A stretch of 39,032 nucleotides of DNA from positions 1-39,032 of IMG/VR virus record IMGVR_UViG_3300037141_000247; one strand, written 5' to 3'. A model generated the notes under the pieces. It ran no database searches and was not told the origin of the DNA. It saw only the letters and a program-made list of their open reading frames with translations. Below are positions 10,556 to 23,508 of this stretch, piece by piece. A program made the position numbers and the translations under genes. This DNA comes from a virus. Numbering within the stretch: position 1 is the stretch's first letter; the number at the start of each line of letters is the position of its first letter.

Positions 10556-10857
10556 TGCTCCCGAGCGACAAGGACAAGACCCGGATCCTCAAACTCACCG
10601 ACCAGATTTCGACGAGCAGCAACAAGGGCTACACCTTCCCGAGGACGTTCGCGGTGGCCGCGATCGCGCGCCGGCTGAAGTTGGCGCCGGCCCGAGCTGA
10701 GCGCCTCGTGAAGGAGCTGGTCGTCGACGGGCGCCTCGAGCCGATCGGGTTCCAATTGAACCTGGCCGACCTCAAGCGGAACTTCCCCATTTACATCAAC
10801 ACCGGGACCAAGGAGCGGTGGCACGCCGAGAGGCTCGCAGCCAAGGCGAGCCAGTGA
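10555..10857 (+). CDS. Winged-helix-like small DNA-binding protein
   Basis: This 100-residue protein has a helix-turn-helix-like pattern in its middle, FAVAAIARRLKLAPARAERL followed by a strand (DGRLEPIGF), which fits a winged helix at about residues 30-70. The C-terminus is basic. It could regulate early transcription, including the nearby palindromes, but the target is unknown. The ATG overlaps the upstream TGA; the downstream gene overlaps by GTGA. Confidence 0.68.
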   Translation: MLPSDKDKTRILKLTDQISTSSNKGYTFPRTFAVAAIARRLKLAPARAERLVKELVVDGRLEPIGFQLNLADLKRNFPIYINTGTKERWHAERLAAKASQ

Positions 10858-11051
10858 CCCGCGAGGAGTACTTCAAGGACAAGAGCCCGAAGTGCGCCTG
10901 GCGTGTCGCGCGCGTCTTCAAGCGGTGCTGGGAGTGCAACGGTGAGATCCGCGAGGACGATCGCTACCTCGACACCGGCATGGTCGTGATCGACAAGTAC
11001 GTCACCGCCAAGATCTGCCTGCGCTGCGCGCGCGCCGACGTCCCAAAGTAG
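10854..11051 (+). CDS. Small zinc-ribbon protein
   Basis: This 65-residue protein has two CxxC pairs, CWEC at about 29-32 and CLRC at about 55-58, spaced as in zinc ribbons. GTG overlaps the previous stop (GTGA). An in-frame upstream extension inside the previous gene exists but is not needed. Nucleic-acid or protein binding is inferred from the fold. Confidence 0.7.
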   Translation: MTREEYFKDKSPKCAWRVARVFKRCWECNGEIREDDRYLDTGMVVIDKYVTAKICLRCARADVPK

Positions 11052-11060
11052 TGGCGCTCC

Positions 11061-11081
11061 GTCCCATCGTGGGACTAGGGT
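11061..11081 (+). promoter_or_regulatory. Palindrome GTCCC-N5-GGGAC with TAGGGT (site B)
   Basis: GTCCC (11061-11065), ATCGT, GGGAC (11071-11075), then TAGGGT (11076-11081), in the same order and spacing as sites A and D. The next start codon is at 11107 and has the RBS GAAAGGAGG. Confidence 0.6.
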
Positions 11082-11106
11082 GAGCGAAGGACGAAAGGAG
11101 GACCCG

Positions 11107-11349
11107 ATGGCATCAACGCTGCAAGAACTCATGAAGGAGCTCGGCTTCGAGCCCCTCGCCACCGGCACGCCCGCGATGTATCGCCTCGAGCTGGACACGA
11201 TCGAGATCTACGTCGGCCAACTGAGCGACGGCGAGATCCACGTCACCAAGACCGGCAGCGACCGAGTCGCCCTCGTAGTGCGCTTCAATCGCTACGACGA
11301 GGCCCTGGGAGCGCTGGTGCGCCAGTGGCTGCCGGTGCCGGTGCGATGA
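11107..11349 (+). CDS. Small early protein of unknown function
   Basis: This 80-residue protein begins with a helix (STLQELMKELGFEPLATG) followed by beta strands (YRLELDTIEIYVGQ, EIHVTKTGSDRVALVV). The ATG with RBS AAAGGAGG eight bases upstream is preferred over a longer GTG start at 11080 that would run into the palindrome promoter. It shares ATGA with the next gene. Confidence 0.65.
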   Translation: MASTLQELMKELGFEPLATGTPAMYRLELDTIEIYVGQLSDGEIHVTKTGSDRVALVVRFNRYDEALGALVRQWLPVPVR

Positions 11350-11540
11350 AGACGACCGGCACCAGCTACCACCTGTTCAATTTCGTCGACGCCAAGGTCG
11401 ACGGCGGCCTCCAGGCCTACCTGGACCAAGCAGGGAAGGAGGGAAAGACCTACCGCGGGATCGCCAAGGAGCTCACTGAGCGCACCGGGATCTCGGTCTC
11501 AAAGAGCGCCGTAGGGCGCTGGATTACCCAAGGCAGATAG
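11346..11540 (+). CDS. Small helix-turn-helix protein
   Basis: This 64-residue protein has a C-terminal helix-turn-helix pattern at about residues 35-62 (YRGIAKELTERTG then VSKSAVGRWI), a classic alternation with a buried Ala and Gly turn. It overlaps the upstream gene by ATGA and may be a regulator made with it. A possible role as early repressor or activator is inference. Confidence 0.68.
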   Translation: MKTTGTSYHLFNFVDAKVDGGLQAYLDQAGKEGKTYRGIAKELTERTGISVSKSAVGRWITQGR

Positions 11541-11551
11541 CCAACACTTAC

Positions 11552-11565
11552 AGCGAGGAGCTGAA
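11552..11565 (+). promoter_or_regulatory. Start-associated motif AGCGAGGAG before erf
   Basis: AGCGAGGAG (11552-11560) lies five bases before the ATG at 11566. The same nine bases precede the starts at 13812, 15791, 18388 and 19826. Confidence 0.6.
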
Positions 11566-12297
11566 ATGAGCACCACCGAAACACCCGAGGCAGCGGTCCT
11601 GCCAGAGCCACGAACCGCGATCGAAATGCTGATCCTGGTGATGCAAGAGGTCGAGTTCGTCGCCAAGACGCGCCAGACCACCGCTCAGGGGCAGTACATG
11701 TTCCGAGGCATCGACGAGGTGATCAACGCTGTCGGGCCGGCCATGCGAAAGCACGGCGGGCTCTTCGTCCCGACGCTGCTCGAGAAGACGCACGAGACCC
11801 AGCCGACGGCCGCCGGCGGCAGCGTCAACCTGGTCCGGGTCACCGTGCGCTTCGCGGCCTACGGCCAGGTCGGCGAACCGATCGTGGGTGAGTGTCCCGG
11901 CGAGGCGTTCGACTCGGGCGACAAGGCCACCGCCAAGGCCATGAGCGTGGCGTTCAGGACCTTCCTGCTCCAGACCCTGGCCATCCCAACCAACGAGCCC
12001 GATCCCGACGAAAGCGGCTTCGAGCGTGGCGACGGTAAGGACAAGCCGATCTACTTCGACATCGGCCGCGCACTGCTGTCCGAGTTCAGGGACCGCGACA
12101 AGCGGGTGGAATTCGTCGAGGCGGCACTCGGGCGATCACTTGACGGGGGCATCGAGAGCCTCGCCGTGTGGGACATCGACGACCTCGAGCGGTACCTCGA
12201 GGCCTACAAGAGGGCCCGGATCGAAGGACGCCCAATGCGCGACGCCAAGGACTTCCTGGCTCGCCTCAAGGCCGACGAAGCGGCGGCCGGCCAATGA
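11566..12297 (+). CDS. erf: ERF-family single-strand annealing protein
   Basis: This 243-residue protein belongs to the ERF recombinase family, which anneals complementary single strands in phage recombination and genome circularisation. Diagnostic segments are YMFRGIDEVINAVGPAMRKHG (about 45-65, with the conserved FRGIDEVxNAVGPxxRKHG core), then GEAFDSGDKATAKAMSVAFR and LLQTLAIPTNEPDPD (about 110-150). The C-terminal 90 residues are acidic and helical, probably for protein contacts. It is followed with an ATGA overlap by an SSB, and the partner 5'-3' exonuclease (YqaJ type) lies 4 kb downstream, so the two would form a SynExo-like recombination pair. Confidence 0.9.
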   Translation: MSTTETPEAAVLPEPRTAIEMLILVMQEVEFVAKTRQTTAQGQYMFRGIDEVINAVGPAMRKHGGLFVPTLLEKTHETQPTAAGGSVNLVRVTVRFAAYGQVGEPIVGECPGEAFDSGDKATAKAMSVAFRTFLLQTLAIPTNEPDPDESGFERGDGKDKPIYFDIGRALLSEFRDRDKRVEFVEAALGRSLDGGIESLAVWDIDDLERYLEAYKRARIEGRPMRDAKDFLARLKADEAAAGQ

Positions 12298-12770
12298 CCG
12301 CGCGCGTCACGATCGTGGGCAACCTGACCAAGGACCCGGCGCAAACCACCTCCCAGCGAGGCGACGCCATAACCAAGTTCGACGTCGCCGTGAACCGGCC
12401 GACTCGAGAAGGGGCACCCGAGGAACAGCCCAGCTACTTCAACGTGACCTGCTTCGGCACGCTGGCCCTCAACACCGGCCAGAGCCTTCACAAGGGCAAT
12501 CGCGTGATCGTGGAGGGCAACCTCGACGTCCGGATCGTCGGGCGCGACGACGGCAGCAAGGCCACCTTCGTGAACGTGGTCGCAGACAGCGTCGGCCTCG
12601 AGCTGCGCTTTCACACCGGCGACGTCCAGCCCGGTCGACAGAGCATGCAGGGCGGCGATCGACCCGGACCAGCGAACCAGCAGCGCGACCGCTCGAGGGA
12701 GCAGCGTCTGCCACGCCCGGCGGCCGATCAGCCTCGTAACCGATACGAGTTCGACGAGGAGCCGTTCTGA
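12294..12770 (+). CDS. ssb: Single-stranded DNA-binding protein
   Basis: This 158-residue protein has the OB fold of bacterial SSBs at about 1-105 (start ARVTIVGNLTKDPAQTTSQ, middle YFNVTCFGTLALN and GNRVIVEGNL). A Gln/Arg/Pro-rich linker follows, then the acidic tip YEFDEEPF that resembles the DDEIPF tail used to recruit repair and replication partners. It coats single strands during replication and ERF-driven annealing. The ATG overlaps the ERF stop and the stop overlaps the next ATG. Confidence 0.9.
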   Translation: MTARVTIVGNLTKDPAQTTSQRGDAITKFDVAVNRPTREGAPEEQPSYFNVTCFGTLALNTGQSLHKGNRVIVEGNLDVRIVGRDDGSKATFVNVVADSVGLELRFHTGDVQPGRQSMQGGDRPGPANQQRDRSREQRLPRPAADQPRNRYEFDEEPF

Positions 12771-13081
12771 TGGAGGGCCCCGAGGACATCGCCGGCGGCC
12801 CGAACGTGGCGATGGCGATCACGAGCGAGTTCACCGCGACGTCGATCCGCTACATCATGAAGCTCGAGGAGGCCCTCGAGGCTACCCTCGTCACCGGCAC
12901 CGCGACGCTGATGGCCGGCCTGGGCATGGAGCACAACGAGGCCAAGCTTCGCTTCATGGACCAGGTCGACAACGCGCGCGAGCGGTGGCCGGCTCTCGAG
13001 CAGCAAGCTCACGTCTACAAGAATCTTCTCTCGGTGATGACCGAGGAGATCAAGCGCTGGGAGACGGAGCATGGCAACTAA
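12770..13081 (+). CDS. Helical protein of unknown function in replication block
   Basis: This 103-residue, mainly helical protein (TSIRYIMKLEEALEATLV, LRFMDQVDNARERWPALEQQ) is coupled to ssb by TGATG and overlaps the next gene by 11 bases. It has no cysteine cluster or membrane segment. Its place between ssb and the initiator suggests a DNA-metabolism accessory. Confidence 0.65.
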   Translation: MEGPEDIAGGPNVAMAITSEFTATSIRYIMKLEEALEATLVTGTATLMAGLGMEHNEAKLRFMDQVDNARERWPALEQQAHVYKNLLSVMTEEIKRWETEHGN

Positions 13082-13526
13082 GGATCTTTCATTCGCGGCG
13101 CAGAGCCTCCTCGATTCGATCGTCAAGAACGAGGGCGACGTCGTGATCGACGCGGCACAGGCCCTCGAGATTTGCGGCACCTCGAGCCGGATCCGGGTCA
13201 AGGACATGAGCGACCGTCAACTCCTGCAGTACGCCCTCTTGAGCACCTACGGGATCGCCCAGCGGCTCGGGCGCGCCTTCGAGGAGGCGCAACGCCACGC
13301 GCAGCTCCAGATGGCCCTGGAGCCCTCACAGGAGCCCGTACGCCTCACGCGGGCACAACGGCGCGAGAAAGAGCGCCTAGAGGCCAAGGAGCGCGTACGG
13401 CGGGCAAAGGCGGCCAAGGAGCGCCCGACGCCCAAGCAACCCGACGACCTCACCTCCGAGGAGGTCCACGCGCTCGCCGAGGCGACACCGGGCCTCGGGC
13501 GCGCCTATGGCGTGGATCCTGAGTGA
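13071..13526 (+). CDS. Helical basic protein of unknown function
   Basis: This 151-residue protein has an N-terminal helical domain and a long highly charged helix rich in Arg/Lys/Glu (about 92-122, including QRREKERLEAKERVRRAKAA), then an acidic tail. The charged helix may be a coiled coil or bind nucleic acid. The ATG lies within the end of the previous gene; the stop overlaps the next GTG. Confidence 0.65.
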   Translation: MATKDLSFAAQSLLDSIVKNEGDVVIDAAQALEICGTSSRIRVKDMSDRQLLQYALLSTYGIAQRLGRAFEEAQRHAQLQMALEPSQEPVRLTRAQRREKERLEAKERVRRAKAAKERPTPKQPDDLTSEEVHALAEATPGLGRAYGVDPE

Positions 13527-13744
13527 AACGCCGAAAGGCCACGCCAGCTGAACCGACCTACCCGATCCACGGGCTGAGGATCCTCGAGCCCGAGAAGCCG
13601 GCGCCACGAGCGGAGCTGTTCGACCAGGACGCCGACGTCCTCACCGACGACCTGATCGACAGCCTCCTCTCGATGGCCGACCAGATCCACTTCTGGCCCG
13701 ACGACGACCAGGCGTTGCACCCGTACCTTCGCCGGATCAAGTAA
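13523..13744 (+). CDS. Small acidic protein of unknown function
   Basis: This 73-residue protein has a basic N-terminus (MKRRKATPAEP) and an acidic remainder (FDQDADVLTDDLIDSLLSMADQ). GTG overlaps the upstream TGA. It is the last gene before a promoter-like spacer. Confidence 0.6.
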   Translation: MKRRKATPAEPTYPIHGLRILEPEKPAPRAELFDQDADVLTDDLIDSLLSMADQIHFWPDDDQALHPYLRRIK

Positions 13745-13774
13745 CCGTCCACCAACGACCGCGCGGCACCGATG

Positions 13775-13806
13775 TAAGGTGAGCGCCGAACACCAACAGC
13801 GAGGAG
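13775..13806 (+). promoter_or_regulatory. TAAGGT -10-like hexamer and AGCGAGGAG motif
   Basis: TAAGGT (13775-13780) followed by GAGCG mirrors TAGGGTGAGCG at site B, and AGCGAGGAG (13798-13806) precedes the GTG at 13812. The GTCCC palindrome itself is absent here, so this may be a constitutive or differently controlled version of the same promoter class. Confidence 0.45.
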
Positions 13807-13811
13807 CAGCG

Positions 13812-13973
13812 GTGGACGAGTCCGACGACGAGTTCTGTGGAACCTTCCCAATCGGCAGTCAGCAATTGCCAGATCGAGGAGTCGCGTGCTACATCGAAGC
13901 CGTCGACATCGACCACGTCCGCCCTCGCTACAACTTGCGACTTGAGAAGATCCCCGTCGAGGTTCCCTGGTGA
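13812..13973 (+). CDS. Small protein preceding the replication initiator
   Basis: This 53-residue protein (start MDESDDEFCGTFPIG) follows a perfect AGCGAGGAG motif with GTG five bases later. It is acidic at the N-terminus and ends in short strands. Its TGA overlaps the GTG of the initiator, so the two are coupled. Confidence 0.6.
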   Translation: MDESDDEFCGTFPIGSQQLPDRGVACYIEAVDIDHVRPRYNLRLEKIPVEVPW

Positions 13974-14482
13974 GCATTCACGTTCAGAACTACGTGTGGA
14001 CTCTCAAAATGGAGAATCCGAATCGGAAGTACGTGGCCATCGCTCTCGCGCATTTCGCCAACGACGACGGGACCAATGCCTTCCCCAGCCAAGCCACGCT
14101 GGTGGAGCGGACCGGACTCGGTGAACAAACCGTTCGGAGATCACTGCGCGAGCTGGTAACTACCGGCGTCATCGTCGTCTCGCGGACGCCGAACCAACGT
14201 CGATCGACCTGCTATGTCTTCGTCTTGCCCGAGGGGATGGTGACCTTCAGACCTTCCGCCACGGCACCTCTAAGAGTCCCTAGAGGTGCCACCGTCACCG
14301 TTAGAGGTGCCACCGTGGAAGGTTCAGAGGTGCCACCACGGCACCCAATAGATAAAGAGAGATCCATTGAAAGAGAAGCACAGCCTTCAATCGACGAGTT
14401 GGAAAGACGACGTGAACGAATGAACGAAACCCGAGCAGCCCTCCGCCGATCCGATCCCGGCGTGACAGTGAGGCTCCCGTGA
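13970..14482 (+). CDS. Helix-turn-helix replication initiator, lambda O-like
   Basis: This 170-residue protein has an N-terminal winged-helix domain of the HTH_36/replisome-organiser kind at about residues 8-90: KYVAIALAHFANDDGTNAFPS, the turn QATLVERTGLGEQTVRRSLR, and a wing (TTGVIVVSRTPNQRR). Such domains bind iterons at phage origins and recruit the host helicase loader. The C-terminal part is short and charged. A striking feature is that direct repeats and an AT-rich stretch lie inside the gene (14263-14377), as the lambda origin lies inside O. GTG overlaps the stop of the small gene before it. The alternative, a transcription regulator, is less likely given the repeats. Confidence 0.72.
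   Translation: MSIHVQNYVWTLKMENPNRKYVAIALAHFANDDGTNAFPSQATLVERTGLGEQTVRRSLRELVTTGVIVVSRTPNQRRSTCYVFVLPEGMVTFRPSATAPLRVPRGATVTVRGATVEGSEVPPRHPIDKERSIEREAQPSIDELERRRERMNETRAALRRSDPGVTVRLP
14263..14339. repeat. Iteron cluster inside the initiator gene (candidate origin)
   Basis: TAGAGGTGCCACCGT occurs exactly twice (14281-14295, 14302-14316), with a third near copy CAGAGGTGCCACCAC (14325-14339). An inverted copy GGCACCTCTA (14263-14272) forms a dyad with the first. Starts are 21 and 23 bases apart, about two helical turns, so copies face the same side of the helix. Each core GGTGCCACC is itself nearly palindromic. This is the arrangement of initiator-binding iterons. Confidence 0.75.
14346..14377. 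other. AT-rich stretch beside iterons (possible DNA unwinding element)
   Basis: Of 32 bases, 22 are A or T (it contains AATAGATAAAGAGAGATCC), in a strongly GC-rich genome. It directly abuts the iterons, as expected of the region melted at an origin. It is also coding sequence of the initiator. Confidence 0.55.
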
Positions 14483-14808
14483 AACGACCGCCCCTAAGAA
14501 AAGTCTCCAAGCGACGCGCCCGCGTCAATCGGGAGCGTGCCAAAATACTCGAGCAACACTTCGGACCTCGTGAGGGCTGGCGTTGCTGGATCAAGGACCG
14601 ACCCGCGGCCGTCGCAATCGCCGGTACCTGTTCCGGCTTCGTCAGTGCTCACGAGATACTCAAGCGATCGCGCGCCGGCTCAACGGACGCCAACCTCCTC
14701 GACGTCAAGGGCCAAGAGCTGTTGTGCTCGAAGCACCAAACCTGGGTGGAGGATCACCCGATCGAGGCCAACAAGCTCGGCCTGGCCAAGCACGCGTGGG
14801 AGACTTGA
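14479..14808 (+). CDS. HNH-like nuclease
   Basis: This 109-residue basic protein has the layout of small phage HNH proteins: a basic N-terminus (KRPPLRKVSKRRARVNRERA), Cys near residue 36 and again at CSGF, a His in AHEILKRSRAGS (about 58) and the zinc-site LLCSKHQTWVEDHP (about 82-95). Relatives cut DNA with a beta-beta-alpha metal fold and often help packaging or recombination. The canonical second half CxxC is partly altered here (CSKH), so activity is uncertain. GTG overlaps the initiator stop. Confidence 0.7.
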   Translation: MKRPPLRKVSKRRARVNRERAKILEQHFGPREGWRCWIKDRPAAVAIAGTCSGFVSAHEILKRSRAGSTDANLLDVKGQELLCSKHQTWVEDHPIEANKLGLAKHAWET

Positions 14809-14812
14809 GGCC

Positions 14813-15307
14813 ATGACCGGCCTAGACCACGCCAGGGACATCGCCTACCCCGACGCCATCGGCCGCGTCACGAGGGAAGGCCAGGACCCGGTCTTCATTC
14901 CCGAGGGCACCTGGATCACCGTCACGCGCAACGGCGTGACCGAGCGCGTCTTCGCCAAGGACGACAGCCCCTTCAAGGAGGAGATCATCCAGCTGCGCGA
15001 GCGAGAGCCCAAGAGCTACGCCGCCAATGGCTTCTACGGCATGGACCCACTCACGTGGATAATCAACCAACAGCGATCGCGCCGCGCGCGCGCCCAGTGG
15101 GACGATTTGATCTTCGGCCGGCGTCGGCCCAACTATGAGGGATTCGTCAAGCCTGATCCCAAGCCAGACCCCGAGGCGACACTCCGCAACATGAAGACCA
15201 GCTTCGGCTTCGTCGGGCCCAAGGAGGCCGCGGCGACATTTCGACTGCTCGTCGATCTGAACAAGCGCACAGAGGATGGGGGTGAGGCCCGTGAACCACG
15301 CGCATGA
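14813..15307 (+). CDS. Conserved-looking protein of unknown function
   Basis: This 164-residue protein begins shortly after the HNH gene. It has strands near the N-terminus (DPVFIPEGTWITVTRNGVTE), then basic helices (QQRSRRARAQWDDLIFGRRR) and a Pro/Asp-rich linker. I do not recognise it. The ATG at 14813 is preferred over upstream in-frame positions that run inside the HNH gene. Confidence 0.65.
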   Translation: MTGLDHARDIAYPDAIGRVTREGQDPVFIPEGTWITVTRNGVTERVFAKDDSPFKEEIIQLREREPKSYAANGFYGMDPLTWIINQQRSRRARAQWDDLIFGRRRPNYEGFVKPDPKPDPEATLRNMKTSFGFVGPKEAAATFRLLVDLNKRTEDGGEAREPRA

Positions 15308-15790: not shown

Positions 15791-16864
15791 ATGGACCTGA
15801 CACAACACTGCGAGATCGTCGAACGAACCGACGATATGGGCTACGGCGACGAGCAGCGAGCACGCTGGCATGAGCTGCGATCGAAGGGCATCGGCGGCAG
15901 CGACGTCGCCGCGATCATGGAGACCTCGAAGTACAAGAGCCGGTTCTCCTGCTGGGCGGAGAAGACCGGCAAAGCGCGCGACGAGCGATCGGGCAAAGCC
16001 GCCGACTGGGGTCACCGCCTCGAGCGGACGATCGCCGAGGCCTACGCCGAGACCACCGGCGCGGCCGTCTTCGCGTGGCCGGTGCTGCTGCGATCTAAGA
16101 AGTTCGCCTTCATGCTCGGCAACCTCGACTTCCTGATCTGCGACGACACCCTCGGCACCGGCGTCGTCACCGACTGGCCGCACGATTACCCGCCGCCCAA
16201 CGTGATCGCCATCCTCGAATGCAAGACCGGCGCCATCACCAGCCGCGGCACACCGTGGGAATGGGAGGACGGCGGCGTGCCGTACAACTACTCGCTCCAG
16301 GGCCTGCACTACTGCGCCGTGACCGGCCTCGACCACGTCGTGTTCGCCGCGCTGATTGGCGGCGTCGACATCGACCGCGACCCATCCGGCCTGGTCGTGC
16401 GCCACCGCGTCTACGACGAAAGCGACATCGAGGAGCTCGAGGAGAAGGAGTACTTCTTCTGGGAATTCGTCGAGACCGACATGCCACCCGAGCCCGACGG
16501 CTCGCCGGCGACCTTCGCGGCGCTGAAGGCGATGTACCCGAACAGCGTCGAGGGCAAGTCGATCGAGTTGACGGCCGACGAACTGCAGATCTACTACGAC
16601 TGGCACGAGGCCAAGGAGCTGAGCGATCTCACCGACGCGGCCGCCAAGAAGCTCTACGCCAAACTCGCCAATATCATCGGCGAGGCCGAGGCGCTCAAGT
16701 GGAAGGGCAAGATCATCGTCACCTACAAGAAGACCAAGGACGGCGTCAAGGTCGACACCGCCGCGCTGCTGGCCGCGCACCCGGAGCTCGAGCAGGAGTT
16801 CGAAGTCCAAAAGCCGGGCCACCGCATGATGCTCGATAAGGCCAAGAAGGAACTGGTCGAGTAG
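15791..16864 (+). CDS. YqaJ/lambda-Exo-type recombination exonuclease
   Basis: This 357-residue protein has the fold signature of YqaJ-like viral recombinases, 5'-3' exonucleases that make 3' overhangs for annealing proteins. Visible motifs: KGIGGSDVAAIM (about 32-43), the helix GHRLERTIAEAYAE, the metal-binding Asp in GNLDFLI (Asp113), and the PD-(D/E)XK core ILECKTG (Glu143, Lys145), followed by NYSLQGLHYCAVTG with the conserved Gln. The C-terminal third is helical and charged. It follows palindrome site C. With ERF and SSB it forms a recombination module, although the two halves are 3.5 kb apart. Its TAG overlaps the GTG of the beta-propeller gene. Confidence 0.88.
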   Translation: MDLTQHCEIVERTDDMGYGDEQRARWHELRSKGIGGSDVAAIMETSKYKSRFSCWAEKTGKARDERSGKAADWGHRLERTIAEAYAETTGAAVFAWPVLLRSKKFAFMLGNLDFLICDDTLGTGVVTDWPHDYPPPNVIAILECKTGAITSRGTPWEWEDGGVPYNYSLQGLHYCAVTGLDHVVFAALIGGVDIDRDPSGLVVRHRVYDESDIEELEEKEYFFWEFVETDMPPEPDGSPATFAALKAMYPNSVEGKSIELTADELQIYYDWHEAKELSDLTDAAAKKLYAKLANIIGEAEALKWKGKIIVTYKKTKDGVKVDTAALLAAHPELEQEFEVQKPGHRMMLDKAKKELVE

Positions 16865-17862
16865 TGGCCTTCGCCTACGTCGTCAACCGGGGCGACGGCA
16901 CCGTGTCCGAGGTCGACCTCTCGACGTTTACCGTCAGCGCCACGCTGGCAGTCTCGACATTGCCCGACGAACCGATGGCCATAGCGATCGACCCGACCAA
17001 CACCTTCGCGTACGTCCTGGTCGGCGGGAGCGGCGTCGGCAACGAGATCGTGAAGATCGATCTCTCTACCTTCACCGTGGCAGCGACGCTCGTCATCAGC
17101 ACCACCAGCGCGCCCGCGAGCATCGCGGTCGACCGCGCCGGTGCATTCGCGTTCACCGTGAGCAACCTCACGTCCGGGGGAGGCGGCCACCCGATCGAGT
17201 TCAAGAAGATTGACCTCACGTCCTTCACCGTCGCGGCGACGCTGACACCCGGCGCCTATGGAGTGGGAACGGCGATCGCCACCGACCAGGCTGGCGCCAA
17301 GGTGTACGCCACCGACGTCACAGGAGTCCTCGAGATCACCGTGAGCAGCTTCACCGTGACCAACTCGCTGACCATCGCGATTGCGACGAACCTCGCGACG
17401 ATCGTTGTGGATCCGCCGGGTGAGAACGCCTACGTCACTGACTGGGGCACGAGCGGTGGCAACTATCGAATCACCCTTTCGACCTTCGCCGAGACCGGCA
17501 CTCCTCCGAACGAGGCCGTCACGGGAGGCATCGATATTGATCCCGCCGACGTGTTCGGCTACGTCTCGAGCTGGGCATTCAATACCCTCATAAAATTCTC
17601 CATCGCAACCCTGGGAGCGGTCGGCTCGCCGCTCACCGTGACGCCGGGCGACTGGGCCGTGGCCGTCGACGACACCGGCGCGTTCGCGTACGTCACCGCT
17701 ATGGCCGTGCCGTTCGGTTCCGGCAACCAGATCGTCAAGGTCGACACCGGCGCCTGGACGCTGGTGGGAGCGCCACTGACCGTGGGCACCGGACCCATCG
17801 CCATCGCCATCTGGAGGCCCCCCTACGTTCCGCCCCTCAACGCCATCGTGATGGTCTTGTGA
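16864..17862 (+). CDS. Beta-propeller (YVTN-type repeat) protein
   Basis: This 332-residue protein is made of YVTN/NHL-like repeats with strands such as AIAIDPTNTFAYVLVGG, SIAVDRAGAFAFTVSNL and AVAVDDTGAFAYVTAM, and the recurring phrase DLSTFTVSATL / DLSTFTVAATL / DLTSFTVAATL. It probably folds as one propeller. There is no signal peptide, membrane helix or enzymatic motif. The first repeat begins at the initiator Met, so nothing precedes the propeller. It is coupled to the exonuclease gene by TAGTG and to the next gene by GTGA, so it is part of the operon and not a stray insertion. A binding or virion-surface role is possible; the function is unknown. Confidence 0.8.
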   Translation: MAFAYVVNRGDGTVSEVDLSTFTVSATLAVSTLPDEPMAIAIDPTNTFAYVLVGGSGVGNEIVKIDLSTFTVAATLVISTTSAPASIAVDRAGAFAFTVSNLTSGGGGHPIEFKKIDLTSFTVAATLTPGAYGVGTAIATDQAGAKVYATDVTGVLEITVSSFTVTNSLTIAIATNLATIVVDPPGENAYVTDWGTSGGNYRITLSTFAETGTPPNEAVTGGIDIDPADVFGYVSSWAFNTLIKFSIATLGAVGSPLTVTPGDWAVAVDDTGAFAYVTAMAVPFGSGNQIVKVDTGAWTLVGAPLTVGTGPIAIAIWRPPYVPPLNAIVMVL

Positions 17863-18031: not shown

Positions 18032-18364
18032 ATGAGCCTCGACGACTTCGCTCGAGCGGTGATGATGGACCACGCGGTGGTCGACGACGTGCTGAAGGAG
18101 CGCCGCGCGCAAGACCGCAAGTGGGGCGAGCAGAACCACTCTGACGGCACCGGCGGCGACACCTTCGAGATCATGCGCGAGCACTCACGCTCTCGGTGCC
18201 AGGCGCTGGCGGCCGACGGGACCGTGACCTGGGAGGCGATCGCCACCGAGGAGTACTTCGAGGCCCTCGCCGAGACCGACGAGGAGAAACTCGAGACAGA
18301 ACTGATCCAGCTCCAGGCCGTCCTGACCGCCTGGGTAGGGTGCATTCGACGACGTCGCAAGTAG
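18032..18364 (+). CDS. MazG-like NTP pyrophosphatase-type protein
   Basis: This 110-residue protein matches a common phage family: ERRAQDRKWGEQNHSDGTGG near the N-terminus, then a helical metal-binding pattern EEYFEALAE followed 14 residues later by ELIQ, as in all-alpha MazG-like NTP pyrophosphatases (EExxE...ExxD). The last acidic ligand appears replaced by Gln. Such enzymes clean or bias nucleotide pools. RBS GGGAAGGAG precedes the ATG. Family is inferred from the pattern. Confidence 0.65.
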   Translation: MSLDDFARAVMMDHAVVDDVLKERRAQDRKWGEQNHSDGTGGDTFEIMREHSRSRCQALAADGTVTWEAIATEEYFEALAETDEEKLETELIQLQAVLTAWVGCIRRRRK

Positions 18365-18381
18365 CGACGCCAAGCGAGGAG
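18336..18381 (+). promoter_or_regulatory. TAGGGT hexamer, variant palindrome GTCGC-N5-GCGAC and start motif
   Basis: TAGGGT (18336-18341) is followed by GTCGC (18354-18358), AAGTA, GCGAC (18364-18368), a 5-5-5 dyad of the same geometry as GTCCC-N5-GGGAC but with altered half-sites, and by AGCGAGGAG (18373-18381) before the ATG at 18388. It overlaps the end of the previous gene. Confidence 0.45.
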
Positions 18382-18387
18382 GCAGTA

Positions 18388-19740
18388 ATGAACAAGGTAA
18401 TTGTCGAGCTCACGCTCGATCGAATCAAGGAGAATCCGTTCGACGCGCGAAAGGTGATGACCGGCGTCGACGAGTTGGCGGCGAGTTTTCTCAGCGTCGG
18501 CCAGATCGTCCCGATCGTGGTGCGGCCGTTTAAGACCAAGGGCGACGGCGACGAGGGCTGGCTCCTGATAGCCGGCCACCGGCGCGTGGCGGCCGCGAAG
18601 TCGCTCGGGTGGGACAGCATCGCCGCGCTCGTCTTTAACGAGGCCACAGAGGCGCACGAGGCCATCCTCGGTCTCACCGAGAACACGAGCCGCGTCGATC
18701 TCAACCAGACTGACCTCGCCAACGCCATAGGGCGCCTCGTCGGCATGGACGTGACCGACGATGAGATCGCGCTGGCGCTCTCGATCAAGCCCGACGTGGC
18801 GGCAGCGGCGAGGACCCTCACGGCCACGCCGAAAGCGGCGAGGACCAAGACCGCCAAACTCGCCGAGGCGTACCCGATCACGATCATTCAACAGGCGAAG
18901 ATCGCCGCCTACGCCGAGGACGGGAAGGACCTCGACAAGATCAAGAGCACGCTGAAATACAGCCCGGAGCAACTCGATCACACGATCGCAAGGATCGAGC
19001 ACGACCGAAAGCGAAAGGCCACGCTCGCCGAGCTGCGCGCGACGGTAGGAAAGACCCCCATCGTCAAGAAGTTCAACTCGTGGAGCGGGCCACCGTTGAC
19101 GACCGAGCCCCTCGCCAACCTGGTCTCGGACAAGCTCAAGAAACTCACGCTGGCGAACCACCACGAGTGCCCTGGCCACGCGGCCATGATCGAGGACGGC
19201 GAGTACTCGAACACCGCGCCCAAGATCACCTACTGGTGCACGCAGTGGAAGGAGCAAGGCCACAAGCTGAGCGACACGCAGCGGATCGTCTGGAGCCAAC
19301 GTGGAGAGGGCAGAGTGGCCCCCAAGACGCAGACTCCTGCGGAGAAGGCAAAGGTCGCCGAGGAGAACAAGCTGCACGAGGAGCGCATCGCCGCCTGGGA
19401 CGCCGCGAGCACCGTGCGCCACGCCTACCTGGCGGACCGCATCAAGCACAAGCTCAGCGCCGACATGAAACTCTGGACGCTGCGCTACATCGCCACGACG
19501 GGCCTCGACAGCTACTACACCGAGGCGGTGGGGATTAACGCCACCCTCGAGCAGGTCGTCTGCCGGCTGTTCGGCTTCGTCGCCGCGCAGATCGAGGAGA
19601 CCGAATTCAGCGTGACACCGTGGAAGGGCGGCACCGACGACGGCCACGCCTACCTGGCGATGCTCGCCAAGGACGGCTACGTCCTGAGCGACGTCGAGCA
19701 GCTCGTCAAGCCCGAAATCATCGTCCGCAAGTCGATCTAG
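18388..19740 (+). CDS. ParB-like protein with C-terminal zinc-type region
   Basis: This 450-residue protein has an N-terminal ParB/Spo0J domain (about 1-100): ELTLDRIKENPFDARKV, the GHRR box in LLIAGHRRVAAAKSLGWDS (about 62-78) and the ENTSRVDLNQTD motif (about 98-109). A helix-turn-helix-like stretch (about 110-145) follows. The second half contains CPGHAAMIEDGE and YWCTQWKEQGH, a possible metal site. Phage relatives bind DNA, and some have nuclease activity or CTP use. It lies immediately upstream of palindrome site D and an SMC-like ATPase, an arrangement reminiscent of segregation or DNA-handling pairs. No ParA partner is present. Confidence 0.8.
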   Translation: MNKVIVELTLDRIKENPFDARKVMTGVDELAASFLSVGQIVPIVVRPFKTKGDGDEGWLLIAGHRRVAAAKSLGWDSIAALVFNEATEAHEAILGLTENTSRVDLNQTDLANAIGRLVGMDVTDDEIALALSIKPDVAAAARTLTATPKAARTKTAKLAEAYPITIIQQAKIAAYAEDGKDLDKIKSTLKYSPEQLDHTIARIEHDRKRKATLAELRATVGKTPIVKKFNSWSGPPLTTEPLANLVSDKLKKLTLANHHECPGHAAMIEDGEYSNTAPKITYWCTQWKEQGHKLSDTQRIVWSQRGEGRVAPKTQTPAEKAKVAEENKLHEERIAAWDAASTVRHAYLADRIKHKLSADMKLWTLRYIATTGLDSYYTEAVGINATLEQVVCRLFGFVAAQIEETEFSVTPWKGGTDDGHAYLAMLAKDGYVLSDVEQLVKPEIIVRKSI

Positions 19741-19825: not shown

Positions 19826-21082
19826 ATGAAAGTCATTGAACTCAGGGCGCAGAACCTAAAGCGCCTCAAGGCAGTAGAGATCCGTCCCGATCCCGACGGC
19901 CACGTCGTGGAGATCACCGGGCGCAACGGACAAGGCAAGACGAGCGTGCTCGACGCCATCTGGTTTGCGCTCGCCGGCGGGGCGGCCACGAGGGACACCT
20001 CCCAGCCCATCCGCGATGGGGAGAAGCGCGCCACCGTCGAACTCGACCTCGGCGACTTCACCATCAAGCGCGTCTGGGAGGAGGGCAAGAGCACCGTCAT
20101 CGTGACGAGCAAGGAGCTCGGGAAGATCACGAGCCCCCAGAAGTTCCTCGACGAGAAGCTGGGCGCGCTCTCCTTTGACCCGCTCGAGTTCGCCGGCATG
20201 GCCGCCAAGGACCAACGCCGGCTCCTGCTCGAGGTCGTCCACACCGACGTCGACATCGAGGACATCGACCGCCGGCGATCGATCGCCTTCGACCAAAGGA
20301 CCGAGGCCAACCGCCTCGTGCGTGACACCGAGGGCGACCTTGTGGCGCACGTCGAGCCCGAGGGCGAGGTACCCGACGAGGAGATCTCGGCAGCGAGCAT
20401 CATCGCCGCCCAGAGGACCTACCAGCTCGCCGTCAACGACCGTGAGAACGCCCGAGAGGCCATTCGCCGGCTCGACAACGAGATCATCGATCTGCAGCTG
20501 AGCGTCGAAACTGCCAAGCAGAACATCGAGGACCTACGCCCGGCGGCCAACGCTGAGATCATGGAGGTGCCGAACGCCGACGAGCAGCTCGCCGACATCG
20601 AAGCGACCAACGTTCTGGTGCGAGCCAAGAAGCACCGCGCCGTCGTCGTGGCCGGCCTGCGTGACTTCGAAGCGCGCGCCCAAGCACTGAGCGACCTCAT
20701 CAGTGAGCTCGACGGGATCAAGCAGACAGCCCTCGAGGGAGCCACCCTGCCGATCGAGGCCCTCGGCTTCGACGAGGACGGCGTGCTCTACCAGGGGATC
20801 CCCTTCAAGCAATGCAGCGCCGCCGAGCAGCTCCGCGTTTCCGTGGCGATGGCGATGGCACTCAACCCGACCATCCGGATCATTCGAGTGGCCGACGGGT
20901 CGCTTCTCGACAGCGCCAACATGGCGGTCATCGCTGAGATGGCCACCGACAAGGACTTCCAGGTGTGGATCGAGCGCGTCGACGAGACCGGCGAGATCGG
21001 CTTCACGATCGAGGACGGCGAAGTGGTCCACGACACCGGCGACACTGGCCACCTGGTCGAGGACGCCGAGGTGACGCCATGA
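19826..21082 (+). CDS. RecF/SbcC-like SMC-type ATPase
   Basis: This 418-residue protein begins like RecF, SbcC and SMC heads: MKVIELRAQNLKRLKAVEI, with Walker A GRNGQGKTS at about 32-40. A helical middle (about 190-300, including DNEIIDLQLSVETAKQNI) is a short coiled coil. The C-terminal head has the signature-like CSAAEQLRVSVAMAMALNP (about 330-348), but where Walker B should show two acidic residues the sequence reads IRIIRVADGSLLD, which is weak. It may bind DNA ends in repair, replication or recombination, perhaps with the ParB-like or exonuclease proteins. It heads its own operon after site D. Confidence 0.8.
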   Translation: MKVIELRAQNLKRLKAVEIRPDPDGHVVEITGRNGQGKTSVLDAIWFALAGGAATRDTSQPIRDGEKRATVELDLGDFTIKRVWEEGKSTVIVTSKELGKITSPQKFLDEKLGALSFDPLEFAGMAAKDQRRLLLEVVHTDVDIEDIDRRRSIAFDQRTEANRLVRDTEGDLVAHVEPEGEVPDEEISAASIIAAQRTYQLAVNDRENAREAIRRLDNEIIDLQLSVETAKQNIEDLRPAANAEIMEVPNADEQLADIEATNVLVRAKKHRAVVVAGLRDFEARAQALSDLISELDGIKQTALEGATLPIEALGFDEDGVLYQGIPFKQCSAAEQLRVSVAMAMALNPTIRIIRVADGSLLDSANMAVIAEMATDKDFQVWIERVDETGEIGFTIEDGEVVHDTGDTGHLVEDAEVTP

Positions 21083-21926: not shown

Positions 21927-22126
21927 CCGATCACGGCGTCCGGATGGTGTGGGGCGCGCCTCACAACGACGCCCCGTGGAAGGGCCACTACAAGGCGATC
22001 TCGCTCTGCGACTGCGGCGCGCGATTCACGGCGTGGGCCGACAAGAAGCGCGACGCTCGAGCAGACGTCGAGACCCAGCTCAACGAGCACCTAGAAAGGA
22101 CCACCAGTGGCCAACGAGCGCAATAA
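21923..22126 (+). CDS. Small CxC-containing protein
   Basis: This 67-residue protein has a CDCGARFTAW motif near residue 29, a half zinc-ribbon as seen in many small phage proteins. GTG overlaps the upstream stop. The C-terminus is helical and charged. Confidence 0.58.
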   Translation: MTDHGVRMVWGAPHNDAPWKGHYKAISLCDCGARFTAWADKKRDARADVETQLNEHLERTTSGQRAQ

Positions 22127-22217
22127 GAAGCAAGGCATCAGTCGCAAGGGCGCAACGTGGCGCCGTCGGACCAAGAAGATACGCTCGGGTTCCCCGAGAT
22201 CAAGGAGACAGCAATGA
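22107..22217 (+). CDS. 36-residue highly basic protein
   Basis: GTG at 22107 follows GAAAGGACCACCA, the same leader found before 7130. The product is very basic (MANERNKKQGISRKGATWRR then RTKKIRSGSPRSRRQQ), suggesting nucleic-acid binding. It overlaps the end of the previous gene by 20 bases and ends with an ATGA overlap on the next. It is short, so coding status is likely but not certain. Confidence 0.45.
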   Translation: MANERNKKQGISRKGATWRRRTKKIRSGSPRSRRQQ

Positions 22218-22615
22218 CCACCGATCCAATCGACCAGAAGATCGCCGAGGCGGTGGGGCACGACCCGACGCTCGCCCAATCCGAGGTCAGCTCGGCGAGC
22301 CAGGACGTCTGCCGCGTAATGGCGTACCTCGGTCCGATCCTCGCGGCCGCCAACCGCGGCTACCTGATCACCGAGAACGCCGACGAGTTCCTCCTCTACG
22401 ACCAGGCCCAGAGCATCATCAACCGAGTGATGGACCGAATGCGCGTGGCCGCCGAGGCGTACTACGGCGCGCCGGACCTGCCCGGCCAGACCCCGAGCGA
22501 TCCCGACGCCGAGAACTGGTGCCTCAACTCCGTCGAGGACGCTCCGGACACGCATCACCTCCTCGGCACCGAGCCAACGTGCCCAGACTGCGTGGCGCAC
22601 AGGTTCGCTTCGTGA
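22214..22615 (+). CDS. Protein of unknown function with C-terminal CxxC
   Basis: This 133-residue protein has a helical acidic body and a C-terminal half zinc motif (CPDCVAHRF). The ATG at 22214 has the RBS AAGGAGA seven bases upstream; an in-frame GTG at 22157 is an alternative but would overlap the basic gene. The stop overlaps the methyltransferase-fusion GTG. Confidence 0.62.
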   Translation: MTTDPIDQKIAEAVGHDPTLAQSEVSSASQDVCRVMAYLGPILAAANRGYLITENADEFLLYDQAQSIINRVMDRMRVAAEAYYGAPDLPGQTPSDPDAENWCLNSVEDAPDTHHLLGTEPTCPDCVAHRFAS

Positions 22616-23508
22616 GGCCCGAGCAGATCGACGAGAGCGAACTCAAGCTCGACCCGAACAATGCCCGCAGCCACGAGAAGGGGATTCCGGAGCTCACGAG
22701 ATCCCTCGAGGCGTTCGGCCAGGTTAAGCCTCTCGTCGTCTGGGGCGACAACGTCGTGATCGCCGGCAACGGCACCCTGACGGCCGCGCGCCAGATGGGC
22801 AAGACCAAGCTCTGGATCGTGCGCGTGCCCGAGGACTGGGATTACAACAAGGCCCGCGCCTTCGCCCTGGCCGACAATGCCACCGGCGACCTGAGCACCT
22901 GGAGCCTTCCCCAGCTCGACTCAACGCGCTGGGAGCTCGACGCCGAGGGCTGGGACGTCTCGGGCTTCGGCTTCGAACCACTTCGACCACCGCCGACGCC
23001 ACTGCTCGCGGCACCCGATGACGTGCCGCCGCTGCCGGCGATCCCGACCACCAAACTCGGCGACCTGATCATCCTCGGCCGACACCGGCTCGTGTGCGGC
23101 GACGCCACGACCAACAAGGCCTACGACCGGGTCCTCGAGGACGAATTCGTCGACGCCGTCTGGACCGACCCGCCCTACAACGTCGGCTACGTCGGCGGGA
23201 CCGACGACCACCTCACGATCGCCGGCGACCGCCAGAGCGACGCGGCGTTCCGAGCGTTCCTCACCGCGGCCTTCCACGAGATGTGGAACCACGCCAAGCC
23301 CGGTGCCGCGATCGACAGCATCGTCCTCGACCCCTTCGCTGGCAGCGGATCGACGCTCGTAGCCTGCGAGATGATGGGCGCCCGAGCCCGGCTGATCGAG
23401 GTCGACCCCAAGTACTGCGACGTCGTCATCACCCGATGGGAGAACCTCACCGGCGAGAAGGCGGAGTACGCTGTCCCAGGAGAGGACAACGATGGCGCAC
23501 TTCACTAA
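22612..23508 (+). CDS. ParB-domain / DNA methyltransferase fusion lacking its central part
   Basis: This 298-residue protein begins with a ParB-like domain (about 1-90: RPEQIDESELKLDPNNARSH, VVIAGNGTLTAARQMG) followed by a beta-class DNA methyltransferase. The catalytic DPPY box is at WTDPPYNVGY (about 184-193) and the AdoMet-binding motif at DPFAGSGSTL (about 239-248), ending with EVDPKYCDVVITRWE. Normally a long stretch with the remaining motifs and the target recognition domain separates these two. Here they are about 45 residues apart, so roughly 100 residues appear deleted in frame near KPGAAI. AdoMet binding may persist, but sequence-specific methylation is doubtful. GTG overlaps the upstream TGA. 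An imperfect GTCCC-N5-AGGAC dyad lies at its end. Confidence 0.78.
   Translation: MRPEQIDESELKLDPNNARSHEKGIPELTRSLEAFGQVKPLVVWGDNVVIAGNGTLTAARQMGKTKLWIVRVPEDWDYNKARAFALADNATGDLSTWSLPQLDSTRWELDAEGWDVSGFGFEPLRPPPTPLLAAPDDVPPLPAIPTTKLGDLIILGRHRLVCGDATTNKAYDRVLEDEFVDAVWTDPPYNVGYVGGTDDHLTIAGDRQSDAAFRAFLTAAFHEMWNHAKPGAAIDSIVLDPFAGSGSTLVACEMMGARARLIEVDPKYCDVVITRWENLTGEKAEYAVPGEDNDGALH
23473..23487. promoter_or_regulatory. Imperfect copy of the GTCCC-N5-GGGAC dyad (site E)
   Basis: GTCCC (23473-23477), AGGAG, AGGAC (23483-23487) has one mismatch from the palindrome and overlaps the RBS AGGAGAGGA of the gene starting at 23492. No TANNNT hexamer follows it. Confidence 0.3.

Follow-up and report, generated by a model that had tools for sequence, protein, structure and literature searches.

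The window analysed here is an entire IMG/VR virus record, a contig of 39,032 bases with a GC content of about 65%, in which no end repeats were found; the genome may be incomplete. Its structural genes include those for terminase, portal, tape-measure, and minor-tail proteins. A gene predicted to encode a replication initiator lies within an early recombination/replication block together with ERF, SSB, and RecE-like genes, and carries within its coding sequence an array of short repeats (putative iterons) and an AT-rich tract. The features of the locus are as follows.

13970..14482, + strand: predicted replication initiator gene (GTG start, 170 aa; phrog_1032, phrog_391, phrog_270, and HTH_36 matches; AlphaFold2 model)
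14123..14164, + strand: predicted DNA-recognition helix of the winged helix-turn-helix (wHTH) domain, codons 52-65 (helix H52-65 in the model)
14251-14273 and 14301-14323, no strand assigned: 23-nt inverted-repeat arms, 83% complementary, with the inverted iteron in the first arm and iteron 2 in the second
14263..14272, - strand: inverted iteron core, AGAGGTGCC exact (repeat search)
14281..14295, + strand: iteron 1, TAGAGGTGCCACCGT (repeat search)
14302..14316, + strand: iteron 2, TAGAGGTGCCACCGT (repeat search)
14325..14339, + strand: iteron 3, CAGAGGTGCCACCAC, in a codon frame different from that of iterons 1 and 2
14346..14405, + strand: AT-rich tract, the presumed DNA-unwinding element, with the highest AT content of any 60 nt in the contig
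14479..14805, + strand: downstream open reading frame (ORF) with a weak HNH-endonuclease match (phrog_740, E=0.0023)

The initiator reading frame ends at 14482, as the downstream ORF overlaps its stop codon by 4 nt. The encoded protein is predicted to consist of a wHTH domain, a disordered linker encoded by the iterons, and a short C-terminal helix. Profile searches matched it to phrog_1032 (1.6e-17) and to phrog_391, annotated as 'O-like' (3.7e-14), and its N-terminal wHTH fits the Pfam HTH_36 profile (43.3 bits; cut-off, 25). In the AlphaFold2 model (mean pLDDT 79), the winged helix is confident (helices H3-11, H17-28, H41-48, and H52-65; strands 68-72 and 80-84), residues ~91-130 are predicted to be disordered, and a helix follows at 141-159. 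Together, these matches and the model uphold the description of a lambda-O-like winged-helix gene given in the original prediction. Among solved structures, a search with the sequence of the initiator alone gave no match, and the family profile gave a single weak one, of the DnaD type (2vn2). The closest solved folds were those of MarR-like regulators, and the weak fold matches (E ~0.015) included the initiator and Rep-DNA structures 4pt7 and 5kbj, which are RepA_N proteins; no sequence match to RepA_N initiators was found, and RepA_N systems, unlike this one, are those of plasmids rather than phages.

The 15-nt TAGAGGTGCCACCGT occurs twice without mismatch, and the third copy matches it at 80% of its 15 nt; within the three direct copies, the 12-mer AGAGGTGCCACC is exact (starts 14282, 14303, and 14326). 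From start to start, the direct iterons are 21 and 23 bp apart, and the first direct core begins 19 bp after the start of the inverted core. The two exact copies, the near copy, and the spacing thus stand as originally described; the inverted copy reported with them is reduced to a 10-bp core, GGCACCTCTA, which is the reverse complement, without mismatch, of bases 1-10 of the repeat and matches the full motif at only ~10 of 13 positions. All four sites share the 9-bp core AGAGGTGCC without mismatch, and even with up to two mismatches allowed it occurs nowhere else in 14231-14400. The array is the top-scoring short-repeat array of the whole contig (39, with the next at 30), and its score was reached by none of 40 genomes simulated under a third-order Markov model. 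When codons were shuffled synonymously, keeping protein and codon usage, the direct-repeat score was reached in 0 of 2000 shuffles. Because the direct copies occupy codon frames 2, 2, and 1, an amino-acid repeat cannot explain them; the repeats are constrained as DNA, not as peptide. Such constraint should be tolerated by the initiator, since the residues encoded by the iterons are predicted to be disordered, and the modelled linker would explain how the gene could double as code and as binding site.

The AT-rich tract begins 4 nt past iteron 3. The 69% AT over 32 bases previously noted beside the repeats is found at 14346-14377, which shares first place for AT content among the contig's 32-mers; the 60-nt window from 14346 reaches 60% AT, the highest of all such windows, against a contig mean of 35%. 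The inverted-repeat arms spanning 14251..14323 might form a cruciform, and the single-strand fold z-score for 14240-14390 was -5.1. GC skew, a check proposed with the original prediction, gave no origin signal along the contig, with no switch at the position of the array.

As a positive control, the same detector was run on lambda O, where the ori iterons are annotated at 39034-39118. All four annotated iterons were recovered (frames 0, 2, 2, and 1), and AT content peaked 9 nt past the final one. The proposed likeness to the lambda origin therefore extends to repeat number, spacing, frame scatter, and position of the AT tract: both loci have an initiator of the wHTH class, intragenic iterons ~20-24 bp apart in mixed frames (PMC7466680), and an AT peak within 10 nt of the array. 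They differ in iteron sequence and in arrangement, lambda having four direct 18-bp iterons whereas the contig has three direct sites and one inverted. Further, lambda O is a 299-aa protein whose gene precedes the replication gene P, whereas the initiator of the contig has 170 aa and no loader was recognised.

To compare the locus with its relatives, we retrieved initiators with protein patterns taken from the N-terminal domain alone, so that the repeats could not bias the choice of relatives. A protein-alone search of viral contigs gave one distant relative; a nine-member alignment was too diverse as a search query, and a four-member alignment worked. The resulting loci numbered 43 from viral contigs, five from genomes, one from the protein-alone search, and 15 from phage records found by tblastn, and after near-duplicates and fragments were removed, 50 initiators were kept, including the contig's own. 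At least three copies of a 13-mer were present inside the gene in 43 of the 50; arrays never matched in 100 codon shuffles were found in 38; and 36 had arrays that were both unmatched in 100 shuffles and distributed over more than one frame, placed just after the wHTH domain. Of 188 control ORFs (170-420 aa) taken from these loci, a single one passed the same test at a laxer 50 shuffles. The spacing of iterons in the family peaks sharply at 22-23 bp (mode 22), and a second set of steps falls at 16-18 bp. Averaged over relatives, the excess of AT is highest 0-45 bp past the last iteron. Iteron sequences vary widely between relatives, and the contig, with three direct iterons, is near the bottom of the family range. 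Thus, the conservation of repeats against codons came out in favour of the original prediction; most relatives did not keep the protein while losing the repeats, and instead carry other sequences in the same place. An intragenic iteron array with an AT tract is the rule across the HTH_36 initiator family, holding for about three quarters of the sampled members. A literature search of incomplete coverage found no survey of intragenic iterons that spans a phage-initiator family.

Some relatives depart from the common spacing or frame pattern. The initiators of L024, L029, L032, and L081 have CACCCCCG-type arrays that form a second spacing class, in which steps of 16-18 bp come first and give way to 22-bp steps close to the AT tract. 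In L040 (2995-3951) and L085 (3001-3789), the intragenic arrays are built of near-palindromic units (TGCCAAttTGGCA and TGCAaaTTCTGCA) that keep to a single codon frame, a pattern not shared by the other family members.

We compared (i) the similarity of iterons with (ii) the similarity of blocks of the DNA-binding domain among 43 relatives. Iteron similarity tracked residues 51-63, the recognition helix, above the other domain blocks, with a partial rank correlation of ~0.22 that was reached in 0 of 300 permutations. After relatives above 60% identity were removed, the helix block was still the largest (0.12; 7 of 500 permutations), and at identity limits of 50% and 45% the signal was not significant. 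Because related sequences share both features, and because the signal fades with distant relatives, we treat this apparent covariation of helix and iteron as supporting evidence only.

Scans with the DNA pattern itself, using GGTGCCACC triplets, returned mostly collagen-like GAT peptide repeats in tail-fibre genes, and for this reason the GGTGCCACC motif alone is not diagnostic. By DNA pattern alone, we also found arrays of GGGGTGCCACC, close to the iteron of the contig, in the wHTH initiator genes of L012 (2385-2440) and L018 (1580-1635). Another array, at L021 6383-6417 (- strand) and ~100 nt around it, has five 23-bp units of GGTGYCACCCRTGGCACCTCAGA in mixed frames and carries the AGAGGTGCCACC core, as in the contig; its ORF matches no PHROG or Pfam family, and it was left out of the counts on that account.

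The closest annotated relatives checked were the HTH_36 initiators of the Arthrobacter phages Kuleana, Juno112, and Renna12 and of Pseudomonas phage CF183a, which are 29-41% identical to the initiator over the aligned part and have frame-mixed iterons after the wHTH; the Juno112 iteron, AACGGGGTGCCAC, has GGTGCCAC in common with that of the contig. These initiators are longer, with a conserved C-terminal FW..YPRKT ... WLN..RWEDE region that is absent from the protein of the contig and was not found in any frame nearby. Such YPRK...WLN..RWEDE motifs are common among HTH_36/phrog_1032 members, not defining. A domain equivalent to this region was not recognised elsewhere in the contig, and the scanned contig ORFs, several of which have no family match at all and might include a diverged loader, gave no P, DnaC, or DnaB-like match. 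Their only convincing Walker-A protein is an SbcC-like ABC ATPase (19826-21079, + strand; 418 aa; phrog_1499, 2.8e-83). Since no helicase or loader was recognised in the contig, these functions are probably supplied by the host. A nearby loader is typical of lambda and not common to all relatives, among which the adjacent loader is variable; in the Arthrobacter phages, a methyltransferase is next to the initiator. The iteron sequence is new, and the initiator is unusually short for lack of the C-terminal region of its relatives.

This shortness raises the question of whether the origin is degenerate or little used, the part of the initiator that recruits helicase having been lost and the phage replicating mainly by another route, for instance recombination-dependent replication with the ERF and RecE-like proteins. 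The length of 170 aa, against ~250-270 aa in most relatives, the lack of a recognised helicase or loader, and the presence of ERF, SSB, and RecE-like genes would fit such a history; however, near-identical iterons and the most extreme AT tract of the contig look maintained, and a short initiator with five iterons is also found in L067 (189 aa), though its own AT tract is weak. We consider this reading unlikely. Still more improbable, in our judgement, is that the repeats act as an operator or in copy control, as sites through which the protein represses its own gene or pairs origins while replication starts elsewhere. Proteins with a wHTH are mostly regulators, as the MarR-like folds nearest to the model recall, and inverted plus direct sites could serve repression; yet the sites lie ~300 nt into the gene and not at a promoter, with no sigma-70-like promoter detected over 10800-15000; the family matches of the protein are to replication initiators; and repression does not require the AT tract that follows the array in the relatives as a group. 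Finally, that the repeats serve to encode a reiterated peptide, or fold into an RNA hairpin that controls the gene downstream, is very hard to credit and was rejected on the frame evidence: RGATV is encoded twice, the 23-nt inverted repeat has a marked fold z-score, and the tail-fibre GGTGCCACC arrays are indeed just peptide repeats, but the third copy lies in another frame, where it reads SEVPP, most relatives likewise have copies in differing frames, and inverted copies are sporadic among relatives.

A plasmid-type replicon was also considered. The Pfam RP-C N-terminal domain of RepC from RepABC plasmids matched part of the initiator (PF03428; 32.4 bits against a cut-off of 24.4), over 42 residues only, and the initiator scored far below the cut-off of the NCBIfam RepC model. 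An origin placed in the initiator gene is a point of resemblance to RepC plasmids, whose oriV is inside repC and depends on the A+T-rich region there (PMC3155836). The repC gene is without iterons, unlike the gene of the contig, and the staphylococcal RepA_N plasmids (pSK41), listed in the same category, have recognisable iterons (PMC3155836). As no repA-repB-repC operon was recognised in the contig, and as iterons are present, a RepABC replicon was rejected.

We conclude that the locus is very probably the phage's theta-type origin, built like ori-lambda and lying within the initiator gene. The candidate intragenic origin of the original prediction is thus supported by the excess of the array, the AT tract, the match to initiator families, and the layout in relatives, from which firing is inferred. 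Judged from its sequence, this candidate has every testable feature of an intragenic origin of the lambda type; no helicase loader was recognised. By analogy with lambda, the 170-aa initiator would bind through its wHTH to AGAGGTGCC(ACC) sites inside its own gene, namely the three direct iterons, two helical turns apart, and the one inverted site. With sites about two turns apart, initiators would stack on one face of the helix and form a nucleoprotein complex, which would strain and open the AT-rich tract starting 4 nt after the last iteron, and the replicative helicase would then be loaded on the opened strands.

A broader proposal is that initiators of the whole HTH_36 family read their own intragenic iterons, that recognition helix and iterons change together, and that in the contig a 170-aa initiator lacking the usual C-terminal region suffices while the host loads the helicase; taken jointly, we advance these points tentatively, as a possibility that is more likely wrong than right. 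If they were true, co-changing helices and iterons would amount to a readable pairing code between protein and DNA and would allow phage origins to be found automatically. A single origin of this type is ordinary in kind, and the family survey is the more useful result: with arrays in about three quarters of the sampled initiators of this widespread family and almost never in neighbouring ORFs, sequence could be used to call the origins of uncultivated phages, and the iteron-helix pairs predict, in a form open to direct test, which repeats each initiator binds.

The region downstream of the locus also includes genes of other kinds. At 16864-17859 (+ strand), a 332-aa protein resembles seven-bladed beta-propellers of the YncE/YVTN type (NCBIfam NF052460, 5.9e-8; NF052280, 2.2e-5), an odd neighbour for a phage replication region. 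ParB-like domains are present in two different proteins, encoded at 18196-19737 (+ strand) and 21949-23505 (+ strand), the second of which also matches the phage DNA methyltransferase family phrog_498 (4.7e-71).
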